Origin: Microbacterium sp.
Lineage (GTDB): Bacteria; Actinomycetota; Actinomycetes; Actinomycetales; Microbacteriaceae
Assembly (NCBI GenBank): GCA_003248845.1
Contig: QFPD01000045.1
Span: forward strand, 1 to 12,032
Direction: 5' to 3'
DNA: 12,032 nt
The position numbers and the translations under genes are program-made. Under the pieces are notes generated by a model, which was given only the letters and a program-made list of their open reading frames with translations, had not been told where the DNA came from and made no database searches. Shown piece after piece: positions 3,222 through 8,596 of this stretch. How positions within the stretch are numbered: the stretch's first letter is position 1; every line of letters starts with the position of its first letter.

Positions 3222-3270
3222 GGTCGGCCTCCGTCGGCGCGGCATCCACCGCTCGCGCTCGCGCCGCGAC

Positions 3271-3283
3271 TACCGTGAGGTCG
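3271..3283 (+). promoter_or_regulatory. Putative leaderless promoter (-10 TACCGT) of the DUF3499 gene
   Basis: TACCGT (3271-3276) fits TANNNT and is seven bases before the ATG at 3284, the spacing expected when transcription begins at the start codon. AGG at 3278-3280 is too close to the ATG to act as a normal Shine-Dalgarno. This box and the divergent one at 3216-3221 share the 74-base gap between the two genes. No clear -35 element is visible. Confidence 0.4.
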
Positions 3284-3490
3284 ATGCGAACCAGACTGTG
3301 CTCGAAGGTGGGCTGCGCCCGCGAAGCGGTGACGACCCTCACCTACGACTACGGCGACCAGATGGCGGCGCTCGGCCCCTTGGGAGCCGCGGGCGACCCG
3401 CACGCGCACGACCTCTGCCGTGTGCACACCGATCGTCTGTCGGTGCCGAAGGGGTGGATGGTCGTCCGCCACGAGACGCTGCGCGTCTGA
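3284..3490 (+). CDS. DUF3499 family protein (short, possibly C-terminally truncated)
   Basis: A 68-residue protein. Cys6 and Cys11 (LCSKVGC), the family signature VTTLTYDYGDQMAALGPLG at about 16-34, then Cys45 and His48 (HDLCRVH) followed by RLSVPKGWMVVRH. The Cys-x4-Cys and Cys-x2-His pairs look like a small zinc ribbon. The function of the family is unknown. It lies between the metallopeptidase-like gene and manB in other actinobacteria (Rv3258c position). Mycobacterial members are much longer (roughly 160 residues) with an Arg-rich tail, whereas this one stops just after the conserved GW..VRH block. The stop codon lies inside sequence shared with an ahcY remnant read in another frame, so the native C-terminus may have been lost. 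I chose the ATG at 3284 over an in-frame GTG at 3275, because the protein aligns from MRTRLCS and the -10 box fits this ATG. Confidence 0.85.
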   Translation: MRTRLCSKVGCAREAVTTLTYDYGDQMAALGPLGAAGDPHAHDLCRVHTDRLSVPKGWMVVRHETLRV

Positions 3491-3576
3491 CGGCGACCGC
3501 GCTGACGGCGGAGCAGGCCGCCTACATCGGAGTTCCCGTCGACGGGCCGTACAAGCTCGATCACTACCGTTACTGA
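3484..3576 (+). pseudogene. ahcY: C-terminal remnant of S-adenosylhomocysteine hydrolase (ahcY/sahH)
   Basis: The 30 codons before the TGA at 3574-3576 read LTAEQAAYIGVPVDGPYK followed by LDHYRY. This is the extreme C-terminus of adenosylhomocysteinase, the Lys/Tyr-containing tail that reaches into the neighbouring subunit's NAD site (E. coli lacks the enzyme; most actinobacteria have it at about 480-490 residues). Nothing upstream in this frame resembles the rest of the enzyme: it runs straight into the DUF3499 gene in a different frame. In other actinobacteria ahcY lies downstream of DUF3499, manB and manA and upstream of mtrA, so this fragment is in its expected place with the intervening genes missing. 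The tail is unmutated, which implies a recent deletion or an assembly join. It has no start codon or ribosome site of its own and is non-functional as it stands. Confidence 0.82.
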
Positions 3577-3691: not shown

Positions 3692-4339
3692 ATGAGCGGT
3701 CTTCTGCGCAATGCGCTTGCCGAGTTCGTCGGCACCTTCATCTTCGTGTTCGCGATCATCGGTGCCGTGAACAGCGGCAGCGCACTGACCCCCCTCGCCA
3801 TCGGATTCGCGCTGATGGTGATGGTCTTCGCGACCGGTCACATCTCCGGTGCGCACCTGAACCCGGCGGTCTCGCTGGGTGCCTGGATCCGCGGCGCGAT
3901 CTCCGCCGTCACGTTCGCGACCTACGTGGTCGTGCAGCTCATCGCCGGTGCGCTCGCGGCGCTGCTCAGCTTCGTGCTGTGGCCGGCTGCCGACGCGCCG
4001 GTGGCGATCGAGGTCGGCCCTGCCTTCCTGGTCGAGGCGCTCTGGACATTCGTCCTCGTCTACGTCGTGCTGAACGTCGCCACGAGCAAGGCGAACGTCA
4101 ACAACTCGTTCTACGGACTCGCGATCGGCTCGACGGTGTTCGTCGGCGCCGTCGCGGTGGGCGGCGTCTCCGGCGGCGGGTTCAACCCGGCCGTCGCGCT
4201 CGGCCTGTCCATCACGGGTGCGTTCGACTTCGCGGCCTACTGGCTGTACCTGCTCGCGCCGCTCGTGGGCGGTGCCGTCGCCGCGCTCGTCTTCCGCGCG
4301 CTCAACAGCGACGACCGTCTCCCGGCGCTCGAGGGCTGA
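3692..4339 (+). CDS. Aquaporin / MIP family channel with a non-polar selectivity filter
   Basis: A 215-residue, six-helix membrane channel with both half-helix motifs: GHISGAHLNPAVS (NPA at 57-59) and SGGGFNPAVALG (NPA at 165-167). It opens with the typical AEFVGTFIFVF, and its size is normal for the family. My hand alignment to E. coli AqpZ is gap-free from the NPA motifs. It places the four aromatic/arginine filter positions at Ile37, Ala153, Gly162 and Val168, where AqpZ has Phe, His, Thr and Arg. Loss of the Arg after the second NPA and of every bulky or polar filter residue predicts a wider, apolar pore. That argues against a strict water channel and for small neutral solutes. GAGGAG ten bases upstream is the ribosome site. 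The gene is a single unit: it follows the ahcY scar by 115 bases and ends at its own terminator before mtrA. The substrate cannot be read from context. Confidence 0.93.
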   Translation: MSGLLRNALAEFVGTFIFVFAIIGAVNSGSALTPLAIGFALMVMVFATGHISGAHLNPAVSLGAWIRGAISAVTFATYVVVQLIAGALAALLSFVLWPAADAPVAIEVGPAFLVEALWTFVLVYVVLNVATSKANVNNSFYGLAIGSTVFVGAVAVGGVSGGGFNPAVALGLSITGAFDFAAYWLYLLAPLVGGAVAALVFRALNSDDRLPALEG

Positions 4340-4534: not shown

Positions 4535-5215
4535 ATGACCTCTCGCATCCTGGTCGTCGACGATGACACCGCGCTCGCTGAGATGATCGGCATCGTGCTG
4601 CGCACAGAAGGCTTCGAGCCGGTGTTCTGCGCCGACGGAGCCGTGGCTGTCGACGCCTGGCGCTCGGAGAAGCCCGATCTCGTGCTCCTGGACCTCATGC
4701 TGCCCGGGCTGGACGGCATCGAGATCTGCACCCGTATCCGCGCCGAATCGGGGGTGCCGATCATCATGCTGACGGCGCGGACCGACACCGCCGACGTCGT
4801 CCGAGGGCTCGAATCGGGCGCAGACGACTACATCGTGAAGCCGTTCAACCCCAAGGAGCTCGTCGCACGCATCCGCACGCGGCTGCGCCCGGGCGCGGTG
4901 ACGGAGAGCGAGACGCTGCGGGTGGGTGACGTCGTCGTGGATGTCGCCGCGCACGAAGTGCGTCGGGGCGATGCCGCGATCGCGCTCACTCCGCTCGAGT
5001 TCGAGCTGTTGGTGGCCCTCGCGTCCAAGCCGCAGCAGGTCTTCTCGCGCGAGATGCTGCTCGAGCAGGTCTGGGGCTACCACTACAAGGCGGACACGCG
5101 ACTCGTGAATGTGCACGTGCAGCGGCTGCGCGCCAAAGTCGAGATCGACCCCGACAACCCCAAGATCGTCATGACCGTCCGGGGCGTCGGCTATCGCGCC
5201 GGCGCGGTGGTCTGA
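4535..5215 (+). CDS. mtrA: DNA-binding response regulator MtrA
   Basis: A 226-residue OmpR/PhoB-family response regulator. Receiver domain at residues 3-117: acidic pocket Asp10/Asp11, phospho-acceptor Asp53 (LVLLDLMLPG), Thr80, Tyr99 and Lys102 (YIVKPF). The winged-helix DNA-binding domain spans about 127-222 and includes LTPLEFELLVAL, the recognition helix DTRLVNVHVQRLRAKVE and the wing VRGVGYR. The sequence is close to the MtrA of other actinobacteria, where it controls cell division, wall hydrolase and replication-associated genes after phosphorylation by MtrB. The next gene, mtrB, begins ten bases after the stop, so they form one operon with lpqB. The nearest purine-rich stretch (GAAGGA, 4516-4521) is 13 bases before the ATG, which is longer than usual, so initiation may be weak. 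All key residues are present. Confidence 0.97.
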   Translation: MTSRILVVDDDTALAEMIGIVLRTEGFEPVFCADGAVAVDAWRSEKPDLVLLDLMLPGLDGIEICTRIRAESGVPIIMLTARTDTADVVRGLESGADDYIVKPFNPKELVARIRTRLRPGAVTESETLRVGDVVVDVAAHEVRRGDAAIALTPLEFELLVALASKPQQVFSREMLLEQVWGYHYKADTRLVNVHVQRLRAKVEIDPDNPKIVMTVRGVGYRAGAVV

Positions 5216-5225
5216 GGCGCGCACC

Positions 5226-6908
5226 GTGGCATCGACCGCGTCGGTCGCGGCGGCCGTGCCGGTCTCGGCGGGCTGGCGGGACTGGCGTGCGTGGCCACGC
5301 CGGGTAACGCAGCTGTGGCGCAGCTCGCTGCGTTTCCGCACCCTTGTGATCACGCTGGGACTCACGGCCTTCGCGATCATCGGCGGGTTCGTGACGATGG
5401 CACTCGCGATCCAGAACGATCTCTTCGAGTCGCGTGTCAACCAGGTGCAGACGGCCGTCGGGCGGGCGACCGCGACCGCGCAAGACACTCTCGGGGCCGC
5501 GCAGGTGGACGGAGATTCGGCGGCGCTCGAGGCGCTCATGTCGGCGGTGCTGACCTCTCTCACGCGGCAATCGGGCACCGACATGATTGCGGCTTACCGC
5601 GTCTCGAACGAACCGTCCGCGCTCGCGCCGCAGGACTTCAACAAGGGCGGCCTGGAAGCCGACATGATCACGCCCGGCATGCGCACGATGGTGCAGCGCG
5701 ATGCCGAGCAGCGGTGGTGGCAGTCGATCGCGTTGCCGACAGCGCAGGGAACGGCGCCCGGAGTCGTCATCGGACAGCAGCTCATCTTCCCCGAGGTCGG
5801 CGCCTACGAGTTCTACTTCGCCTACGACCTCGCGCCGGAAGCGGCGACGCTGCGCTTCGTCCAGGTGACGCTGTGGCTCGTGGGAGGAGCGCTGATCCTC
5901 CTGATCGGCGCGATCTCGTGGTTCGTGCTGCGCACGATCACGGTGCCCATCGCCCAGGCCGCCGAAACGAGCGCGACGCTCGCGGCGGGGGACCTGGGCG
6001 TGCGGCTGCCGGTGCGCGGCGACGACGAGTTCGCGACCCTCGGACGCTCCTTCAACGCCATGGCCGATTCGATCGAGTCGCAGATCAAGGAGCTCGCCGA
6101 GCTGTCCCTCGTGCAGCAGCGCTTCGTCTCCGACGTCTCCCACGAGCTGCGGACACCGCTGACGACCATCCGGCTCGCGAGCGACATGCTGAACGACCAG
6201 CGTGAGAACTTCGATCCGACCACGGCGCGCGCGGCGGAGCTTCTGCACGCTCAGGTGCAGCGGTTCGAAGTGCTCCTCACCGATCTCCTCGAAATCAGCC
6301 GGTACGACGCAGGGTCGGTGCAGCTCGAGAACGAGCCCACGAGCCTCGCCCACCTCGCAGAGGATGTCATCGCGTCGATGCAGCAGCTTGCCGATCAGCA
6401 CGGCACGGACGTGCGCCTCGTCGCCCCGGGCGGATATTCCCCCGTGGACATGGACCCGCGCCGGGTGCGCCGCATCGTCCGCAATCTTCTCGGCAATGCG
6501 ATCGAGCACGGAGAAGGGCGGCCCATCGTCGTCTCGGTCGACAGCGATCAGAACGCCGTCGCGCTGGGTGTCCGTGATTTCGGCCTCGGCATGACGGCGG
6601 ACGACAGTGCGCGAGTGTTCGACCGGTTCTGGCGGGCCGATCCTTCGCGCAAGCGCACGATCGGCGGAACCGGGCTCGGCCTGTCGATCGCGCTCGGCGA
6701 CGCGCGGCTGCACGGCGGGACGCTCGCCGTGTGGTCCGAGCCCGGGCGCGGCACGAACTTCGTGCTGACGCTGCCCAGACACGGGCAGCCGGTCGGCGCG
6801 GCATCCCCGATCCCCATCGATCCGGGCGACGACGGCGCACCGCTCGACGACCTCGGACTCACGCAGCCGATCGCGGTGCCACCCGGACGCATGAAGGGGA
6901 CGTCATGA
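5226..6908 (+). CDS. mtrB: Sensor histidine kinase MtrB
   Basis: A 560-residue membrane histidine kinase. A short cytoplasmic N-terminus with basic residues is followed by TM1 (about 39-62), an extracytoplasmic sensor region (63-208), TM2 (211-236), HAMP (about 237-289) and a dimerisation helix with the phospho-acceptor His306 (VSDVSHELRTPLT). The ATPase domain has the N box (RNLLGNAIEHGEG, 419-431), G1 (DFGLGM, 451-456), F box (FDRFWR) and G2 (GGTGLGLSI, 480-488). A Pro/Asp-rich tail of about 40 residues closes it. It phosphorylates MtrA. The GTG at 5226 lies ten bases after the mtrA stop and is preceded by TGAGG overlapping that stop. Its own stop overlaps the lpqB start (ATGA). The domains and order are complete and nothing is degenerate. 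Confidence 0.97.
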   Translation: MASTASVAAAVPVSAGWRDWRAWPRRVTQLWRSSLRFRTLVITLGLTAFAIIGGFVTMALAIQNDLFESRVNQVQTAVGRATATAQDTLGAAQVDGDSAALEALMSAVLTSLTRQSGTDMIAAYRVSNEPSALAPQDFNKGGLEADMITPGMRTMVQRDAEQRWWQSIALPTAQGTAPGVVIGQQLIFPEVGAYEFYFAYDLAPEAATLRFVQVTLWLVGGALILLIGAISWFVLRTITVPIAQAAETSATLAAGDLGVRLPVRGDDEFATLGRSFNAMADSIESQIKELAELSLVQQRFVSDVSHELRTPLTTIRLASDMLNDQRENFDPTTARAAELLHAQVQRFEVLLTDLLEISRYDAGSVQLENEPTSLAHLAEDVIASMQQLADQHGTDVRLVAPGGYSPVDMDPRRVRRIVRNLLGNAIEHGEGRPIVVSVDSDQNAVALGVRDFGLGMTADDSARVFDRFWRADPSRKRTIGGTGLGLSIALGDARLHGGTLAVWSEPGRGTNFVLTLPRHGQPVGAASPIPIDPGDDGAPLDDLGLTQPIAVPPGRMKGTS

Positions 6909-8596
6909 TCCGTGTCGGAATCCGCGGGGCCGTCGCCGCGCTCGCAGCCGCCGCCGTCGCGGTGACGCTCACCGCGTGCGGGGCGCTGCCGATATCGGGC
7001 CCCGTCAACGCGGGACAGCCCATCGCCGACGACTCCTCGGCCGGTGACCTCGTCTTCCTTCCCGACGCTCCGGCGAAGGACGCCACGCCGCAGCAGATCG
7101 TCGAGGGCTTCATCGCTGCGGGATCGGGTCCGCGCGACAACTGGGCCATCGCGCACCTGTACCTCGCACCGGAGTTCTCCTCGGAGTGGGATCCACGCGA
7201 AGGCGTCGCCGTCTACGATCCGGGCGAGCGCGCCCTCACTGAGACGGCGGAGGACGAATTCGTCCTCTCTCTGACCCCGTCGGCCTACGTCGACGCGACG
7301 GGCGAGATGTCGGCGACGGGGGAGAGCGCGGCGCTCGAGCTCACCTTTCACCTCGCCCAGCAGGCCGACGGCCAGTGGCGCATCACAGAGGCGCCGCAGG
7401 GGATCATCCTCGACCGCAACCGCTTCGTCACGGTCTTCGGCTCGTACTCGCTGCAGTTCTTCGACCCGACGTGGACCTACCTCGTTCCGGACGAACGCTG
7501 GTTCCCGCGGCAGTATGCCGCGACCCGCATCGCCGCGGAGCTCGTCAACGGGGGGCCGAGCCCGTGGCTCGTGGGCGCCGTCGCGACGGCGTTCACCGAC
7601 GCGGCGCGCCTCGCGACGCTGTCGGTGCCGCAGCAGCTGGGGGTCGCCGCCGTCTCGCTGCAGGAGGGCGCCCGCAGCCTCGACCGCACGACGCTGGACC
7701 GTATGCAGACGCAGCTCGAGGCGTCCCTGACACAGGCGCGCGTCGATCAGGTCGACATGCTCGTCGATGGTCAGGTGCTCACCGCCGAGGCACTCACCCC
7801 GCGACCCACACGAGTCGACACGAACCCGCTCGTGCGCACCGCCGACGACTTCGGATTCCTCGCGGGCGGCGCGGTCGTCGAGATCCCGGGCCTGTCGAAG
7901 TCGATCCTGGCGCTCGAGGCGACCGACATCGAAGTCGACCCCGACCACACGCTCGCCGCCGTGCGGGATGCCAACGGCACCGTCCTGCGCGTCGACGCCG
8001 ACGGCGCCGACCGGGTCGATCTGCGGCCCGGGCTGCTGCCGCCCTCCGTCGACCCCGCGGGGTACGTCTGGTCGGTGCCGCAGTCCTCGCCCGGCGCGGT
8101 GATCGCCTTCGGCCCGGATGCCGCTCAGGTCGCGATCGCCTCCGCGTGGCCGGGTGCGTCGCAGATCCTCGCCCAGCGCGTCTCGCGCGACGGCACGCGC
8201 CTGGCCGCGGTCGTGCGCGACGGCGACCGCTACGCGCTGTGGGTCGCGGGGATCCTTCGCGACCGCGCACAGGCGCCGACGGGACTGGGCGAGAAGAAGG
8301 TGCTCGCGATCCTGCCCGGCCCGTCGACGGCCCTCACCTGGACCGGATCGAACGACCTCGCACTCACCACCACCGCGCAGGGCGACCCCCGCCTGTTCAC
8401 GCAGGAAGTCGGAGGCTTCTCCTCCGTGACGCAACGCGTCGTCGCGAATGTGACCACGGTCGCGGGCGGTGTGCAGTCGGGCGGGATCCGCGTGCGCGAT
8501 ACGGCTGGTGAGCTCTACGCTCCGCGCGGATCGAACTGGCAGCAGCTGGCGTCCGGAATCCTCGTGCTCGCGGTGCAGCAGGGCGCGCCGCGCTGA
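6905..8596 (+). CDS. lpqB: Lipoprotein LpqB, accessory protein of MtrAB
   Basis: A 563-residue lipoprotein. The signal peptide (residues 1-24) ends in the lipobox LTAC, with Cys25 the lipidated residue, so the protein is anchored on the outer face of the membrane. The LpqB N-terminal domain with the GerMN (sporulation/germination) fold covers roughly residues 50-320, with the pattern ERWFPRQYAATRIAAELVNGGPSPWL near 205-230. The rest forms an LpqB-type beta-propeller with repeated strands such as DGTRLAAVVRDGDRYALWVAGI. In mycobacteria LpqB binds the sensor part of MtrB and tunes MtrA phosphorylation. The ATG at 6905 overlaps the mtrB stop by four bases, so translation is coupled. This ends the mtrAB operon unless transcription continues into comF, 85 bases on. 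An 18-base palindrome at 7250-7267 in the coding sequence is probably incidental. Confidence 0.96.
   Translation: MIRVGIRGAVAALAAAAVAVTLTACGALPISGPVNAGQPIADDSSAGDLVFLPDAPAKDATPQQIVEGFIAAGSGPRDNWAIAHLYLAPEFSSEWDPREGVAVYDPGERALTETAEDEFVLSLTPSAYVDATGEMSATGESAALELTFHLAQQADGQWRITEAPQGIILDRNRFVTVFGSYSLQFFDPTWTYLVPDERWFPRQYAATRIAAELVNGGPSPWLVGAVATAFTDAARLATLSVPQQLGVAAVSLQEGARSLDRTTLDRMQTQLEASLTQARVDQVDMLVDGQVLTAEALTPRPTRVDTNPLVRTADDFGFLAGGAVVEIPGLSKSILALEATDIEVDPDHTLAAVRDANGTVLRVDADGADRVDLRPGLLPPSVDPAGYVWSVPQSSPGAVIAFGPDAAQVAIASAWPGASQILAQRVSRDGTRLAAVVRDGDRYALWVAGILRDRAQAPTGLGEKKVLAILPGPSTALTWTGSNDLALTTTAQGDPRLFTQEVGGFSSVTQRVVANVTTVAGGVQSGGIRVRDTAGELYAPRGSNWQQLASGILVLAVQQGAPR

Follow-up and report, generated by a model that had tools for sequence, protein, structure and literature searches.

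A probable deletion scar of ahcY next to DUF3499 in a Microbacterium contig and the repeated loss of S-adenosylhomocysteine hydrolase in the genus

What has become of ahcY, the gene for S-adenosylhomocysteine (SAH) hydrolase, in a Microbacterium strain where the end of this gene stands directly behind a gene of the DUF3499 family? The strain is known only from metagenomes, and its locus lies on a contig of 12,032 nucleotides (QFPD01000045.1, assembly GCA_003248845.1), the whole of which we call the window. The original prediction, which was made from the letters of this contig, described DUF3499 as fused to the last 30 codons of ahcY after the removal of several kilobases that held manB, manA and most of ahcY, and it named a mis-joined contig as the alternative. 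Our comparison with related genomes points to a smaller event. We consider it probable that the window carries a deletion scar of ahcY, one of many losses in the genus, and that such losses are tolerated through a nucleosidase of the 5'-methylthioadenosine (MTA)/SAH type.

The DUF3499 gene and the ahcY tail are merely adjacent, with no fusion between them. DUF3499 (3275..3490, plus strand, from GTG at 3275 to TGA at 3488-3490) is complete with 71 aa and its own stop, matches the PF12005 profile at 89.4 bits (E 3.3e-25), and ends in HETLRV before the stop as its relatives do; the ending HETLR[V/A] plus stop occurs in all 17 loci where DUF3499 was detected by a sequence pattern, so the gene is neither fused nor cut. 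Window positions 3496..3576 (plus strand) then translate, in a frame differing from that of DUF3499, to TALTAEQAAYIGVPVDGPYKLDHYRY followed by an intact stop codon. This tail matches positions 274-299 of the 299 in PF05221 (E 5.6e-7; 29.4 bits, exceeding the curated cut-off of 25) as well as the C-termini of AhcY proteins in the PDB (E 5.4e-7), and together these matches are far above chance. The predicted origin of the tail from the C-terminal end of SAH hydrolase is thereby borne out, while its length has to be corrected from 30 codons to about 26 plus the stop, with the breakpoint within about 3491-3501. The catalytic and NAD-binding domains of AhcY are missing from these last 26 codons, and the tail in the window is a remnant, not an enzyme.

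How much has been lost can be read from the relatives. An LpqB scan of genome contigs gave 34 loci, the 17 with pattern-detected DUF3499 among them, and the closest relative is L001, a Microbacterium metagenome-assembled genome (92% in LpqB and 94% in MtrB), with which the window pairs at a support of 0.94 in the MtrB tree and 0.998 in a tree of 33 loci plus the window. L001 has the same locus with ahcY in place, in the order DUF3499, a 61-bp spacer, an intact ahcY of 491 aa (ATG 5197 to TGA 6672), a MIP-family channel gene and mtrA. The window aligns to it by blastn in two pieces, 3263-3492 and 3500-3576, with 219 of 230 nt the same on the DUF3499 side and the ahcY side beginning at about 3496 by codon alignment; the blastn and tail alignments together define the breakpoint zone (3491..3501). 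The YIGV codon lies 32 nt past the DUF3499 stop in the window and 1,483 nt past it in L001, which makes the window 1,451 nt shorter. L001 carries the sequence CTGACG at either end of the stretch (5132-5137 and 6589-6594), and we do not claim it as a microhomology at the breakpoint; the crossover cannot be placed because the window tail has two extra codons between CTGACG and the shared EQA in the codon alignment.

The same arrangement recurs: 13 of the 17 loci have ahcY directly behind DUF3499, with its tail 1,426-1,502 nt further on, while the other four (L002, L005, L016 and L017) have no ahcY tail there. In L008, L009 and L020 the tail is present and DUF3499 was missed by the search pattern. 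The gene order of Mycobacterium, which had placed manB and manA between DUF3499 and ahcY, is therefore a poor guide to this locus. A search for manA (PF20511) in 13 genomes of relatives found it in every one: in 11 it shares a contig with DUF3499 and lies 6-9 kb upstream of it, and in G003 and G023 it is on another contig. Genes of the phosphoglucomutase/phosphomannomutase (PGM/PMM) family, present in all five genomes searched, lie at least 50 kb away or on other contigs. The lost stretch, about 1.45 kb instead of several kilobases, is therefore the spacer and most of ahcY and nothing else, and nothing suggests a loss of mannose activation. What did hold is that one end of the deletion lies inside ahcY, most of which is gone from its usual place.

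Could the tail still serve a function, be it as a small peptide or within a frameshifted DUF3499-AhcY product? It differs from L001 at 11 positions, seven of them in residue-preserving codons, and this pattern is what speaks for a function. However, the substitutions are too few for any conclusion, and a recent loss accounts for the low decay, which the original prediction had noted correctly. Reading the sequence directly, we found no in-frame ATG, GTG or TTG anywhere between the stop of DUF3499 and that of the tail. When the DNA of the junction was compared with 366 Microbacterium genomes, 365 matched, and among the matches listed none spans DUF3499 to the tail end; the longest of them across the DUF3499 stop (4-291) is in G055, a genome with full-length ahcY. 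We give a retained function hardly any credence.

A further question is whether the join is real. Two points 1.45 kb apart might have been wrongly connected during assembly, and the nearest LpqB homologues (97-99%) are indeed solely metagenomic, none of their contigs exceeding 12.6 kb. Both flanks are nevertheless in the correct order and orientation, and a database search with the junction frame found P0231, a predicted adenosylhomocysteinase of 62 aa on a contig of 15,216 bp from the Joint Genome Institute (JGI). Its last 34 residues are the same as those encoded by window 3472-3573, which crosses the breakpoint, and it starts with VLAQLE, an AhcY segment that the window does not encode, so the two contigs differ upstream, though their samples are perhaps not independent. 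Because this second metagenome contig shares the junction, and because independent losses of ahcY with other breakpoints occur in isolates and in G056, where the locus lies on a 3.18 Mb contig, we regard a mis-join as very unlikely.

P0231 also bears on how the deletion may have arisen. Its middle part is DUF3499-derived and, apart from two small frame changes, corresponds to window 3405-3472; this suggests that an ahcY gene had received a copy of the 3' end of DUF3499. P0231 may represent an intermediate of the window deletion, in which template switching would have copied the 3' end of DUF3499 into ahcY and the two copies of DUF3499 would then have recombined, deleting ahcY and giving the window exactly. 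The succession of AhcY piece, DUF3499-derived part and window tail in P0231 fits this course. On the other hand, the P0231 contig may be mosaic or error-bearing, the view rests on the encoded protein, and a one-step deletion suffices for the window alone; we therefore treat the two-step course as possible but doubtful.

Is the window an isolated case? A PF05221 search of the 366 genomes matched 239 at E <= 10, and the 78 genomes with a best E above 1e-100 were searched again. Full-length ahcY is present in 161 of these species genomes and absent from 205; the weakest of the 161, G089 (3.2e-123) and G232 (6.9e-103), were taken as full length without being among the listed places. Among the 78 searched again there were five with split or partial canonical ahcY (G162, G237, G241, G243 and G319), one M. 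lacticum remnant, and seven with sub-threshold matches only. The traces left at the locus differ from species to species. M. lacticum has rearranged ahcY pieces between DUF3499 and a gene recognised by eye as Fur-like, M. oleivorans Wellendorf retains a few of the first ahcY codons, M. flavum (G002) has no ahcY trace beside DUF3499, and in M. dextranolyticum (G056) nothing can be recognised over the 1.7 kb that follow DUF3499; neither of the last two has a PF05221 match anywhere in the genome at E <= 10. In the tree of 33 loci plus the window, five tips (the window, L002, L005, L016 and L017) each arise next to AhcY-bearing kin. The MtrB tree, built from 146 of the best 150 of 364 matched genomes (G147, G217, G260 and G354, which lack AhcY and have the short nucleosidase described below, were left out), contains 14 AhcY-negative clades when absences are counted as losses without regain, and these include the window and the fragmentary G237, G248 and G331. 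The window deletion is thus one of many independent losses of ahcY in the genus.

It is also conceivable that ahcY has moved and that an intact copy stands elsewhere in the genome of the window strain. The position of ahcY is not fixed across the genus, since in some distant Microbacterium (e.g., G205) the ahcY place and the MIP place are hundreds of kb apart on one contig. Against a move, 20 examined genomes that have full-length AhcY show exactly one match apiece, and M. flavum and G056 have none at all; we judge a relocated copy to be improbable.

Several other sequences resemble ahcY or its remains. Weak PF05221 matches (E 1e-5 to 1e-18) were considered as ahcY remnants and set aside: most of them, judged by where they match, seem to be parts of a single open frame, a diverged AhcY-like paralogue, and they were not counted as AhcY. 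By such weak matches a frame of this kind (L050-L074) is seen in several dozen Microbacterium genomes without canonical AhcY, and in the one case examined (L074, 853-2283) it is 477 aa long and reaches 257 bits to NF004005, whose cut-off is 275. Canonical AhcY is split over two or three frames, through decay or sequencing error, in G319 (L045), G162 (L046) and G243 (L047), and G319 also carries MtnN and LuxS. The remnant in M. lacticum DSM 20427 (L005, 3297-3680) contains a repeated internal piece, and MtnN, LuxS and the short nucleosidase are all encoded in this genome. In the ahcY-less L002, L005 and L016, the gene that follows DUF3499 is Fur-like (by eye) and is preceded by a palindrome like TTTTGAACTGATCAAAAC.

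How can a cell do without this enzyme? As their product, SAH strongly inhibits methyltransferases, and cells need to remove it. Canonical MTA/SAH nucleosidase, MtnN (TIGR01704 above its cut-off), was found in 27 of the 366 genomes, none of which has full-length AhcY. Weak MtnN matches also led to a short nucleosidase of about 183 aa (NCBI 'nucleosidase' model NF004168), which is present in 286 of the 366 genomes at E <= 1e-15. It occurs in 171 of the 178 genomes that have neither full-length AhcY nor MtnN, compared with 115 of the 188 others (Fisher p 1.7e-17, uncorrected for kinship), and is absent from 26 of the 27 MtnN genomes, with G005 having both. LuxS, which requires the product of SAH cleavage, was found in six of the eight tested genomes that have the short nucleosidase only. 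In 22 of the 27 MtnN genomes mtnN adjoins luxS (the exceptions are G082, G083, G163, G319 and G328), a sign that both genes may have been acquired together.

The short nucleosidase has the MTA/SAH nucleosidase fold over its full length in a structure model, and the catalytic Glu, Glu and Asp (E11, E130 and D153) are present in 34 of 34 sequences. The equivalence of E. coli E12 and D197 to residues of the short nucleosidase was drawn from PDB entry titles and alignment, and we take E130 to be the counterpart of E. coli E174. Canonical MtnN/Pfs (PDB 5cce, 3nm4, 1jys) is longer, about 230 aa against 183-184 aa here, and shares 19-26% identity with it among the matches listed. The short MTAN of Chlamydia trachomatis, CT263 (PDB 4qaq, 4qat), is closer in length, with 187-195 residues in its chains and a root-mean-square deviation of 2.1-2.7, at 20-21% identity; the biological role of the Microbacterium protein is putative. 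The curated cut-off of NF004168 (PRK05634) is 129 bits, which 31 of the 366 genomes exceed, while four proteins scored 124.1-131.5. Automated JGI annotation names many homologues adenosylhomocysteine nucleosidase, and NCBI calls them nucleosidase or phosphorylase family. From the fold, the catalytic residues and the co-occurrence with LuxS and ahcY loss, we infer that this protein cleaves SAH to S-ribosylhomocysteine and adenine.

Taken to the window, these results would give the following course. A deletion would have taken the DUF3499-ahcY spacer and about 465 of the 491 ahcY codons, with window 3491-3576 as its scar; it left DUF3499 intact and the ahcY tail a dead remnant, as is seen at the locus, and the genome presumably holds no other copy. 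The loss would be tolerated because nearly all AhcY-less genomes hold canonical MtnN or, mostly, the short NF004168-like protein, whose removal of SAH would make ahcY dispensable; where LuxS is present, it would return homocysteine from the S-ribosylhomocysteine. As L001, the nearest kin of the window, carries the short nucleosidase and gave no match for LuxS, the window strain would probably destroy SAH without homocysteine recycling. That the short protein is a working SAH nucleosidase which permitted repeated ahcY deletion and, with LuxS, rebuilds the activated methyl cycle, the window being a recent case, is a proposal that we favour slightly.

Several observations weigh against this reading. 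Evidence on the window strain itself is confined to the locus, and the ahcY absences in other genomes rest on assemblies without completeness figures. The short nucleosidase scores below the TIGR01704 cut-off (39.4-41.8 bits for four proteins against 73.8) and is not filed as MtnN. It is also not a dedicated replacement, since 114 of the 161 AhcY-bearing genomes have it too. Seven genomes (G195, G243, G248, G252, G301, G302 and G331) have none of full-length AhcY, MtnN and the short nucleosidase; G248, G252, G301 and G331 are small (1.7-2.6 Mb), G302 also lacks an MtrB match, G243 has the split AhcY, and the many contigs of G195 are its one excuse. A test of dependent evolution on all 146 tips of the MtrB tree was not significant (likelihood ratio (LR) 7.2, p 0.13), and gave LR 12.5 (p 0.014) after the three fragmentary genomes G248, G331 and G237 were dropped. 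In this tree 13 clades lack the short nucleosidase, their sole AhcY-negative members being G248 and G331, both small assemblies represented here by a contig of about 8 kb. The phylogeny-corrected dependence between AhcY and the short nucleosidase is thus modest. The LuxS search covered 38 chosen genomes of the 366, and G002 and G014 lack AhcY, MtnN and LuxS.

Downstream of the tail in the window stands a MIP-family, aquaporin-like channel gene (3692..4339, plus strand; PF00230, E 2.5e-36), which also adjoins ahcY downstream in close relatives, and by motifs the order tail, MIP, mtrA is common to L001, L006, L007 and L032. It is followed on the plus strand by the response regulator gene mtrA (4535..5215) and the histidine kinase gene mtrB (5226..6908; the marker of the 146-genome tree), both identified by Pfam, and by lpqB (6905..8596; homologues with LpqB domains and name), the query used to collect the relatives. 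One contig from this collection, L011 (JACEFY010000311.1), is 3.1 kb long and belongs to an assembly of Stenotrophomonas maltophilia; it encodes a Microbacterium-like LpqB and is probably contamination.

Alternation between two routes of SAH removal, a one-step hydrolase (SahH) or a two-step nucleosidase plus LuxS (Pfs/LuxS), rarely both in one genome, is already known (PMC524169, PMC2233627). Within the 138 genomes of 2003 surveyed in the former paper (2004), Actinobacteria are given SahH, with Pfs/LuxS absent there except in Bifidobacterium longum, and the latter describes free-living species with Pfs only. Here, by contrast, the switch seems to have been made repeatedly within one actinobacterial genus, mostly via a short nucleosidase below the MtnN cut-off. 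At the locus itself we see an ordinary deletion scar, with one gene removed, intact neighbours and a small remnant; unlike in ordinary scars, the same gene has been struck in many lineages of one genus, and it is this genus-wide pattern that is unusual. We found no report of repeated ahcY loss or of a nucleosidase substitute in Microbacterium in the open-licence PubMed Central (PMC) literature, and a search of the same papers returned no experimental characterisation of a short NF004168-like nucleosidase. Passages of PMC7302621 and PMC12834153 did not bear on the question. The name adenosylhomocysteine nucleosidase is not new, as JGI uses it, whereas the role of the short protein would be. For related genomes, neither SAH hydrolase nor the mannose-gene synteny of Mycobacterium should be assumed. 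With 205 of 366 species genomes lacking full-length ahcY and a small nucleosidase as the likely substitute, the replacement is testable by one enzyme assay, and, if true, an activated methyl cycle would run via a short nucleosidase and LuxS in a bacterial group that has been reported to rely on SAH hydrolase.
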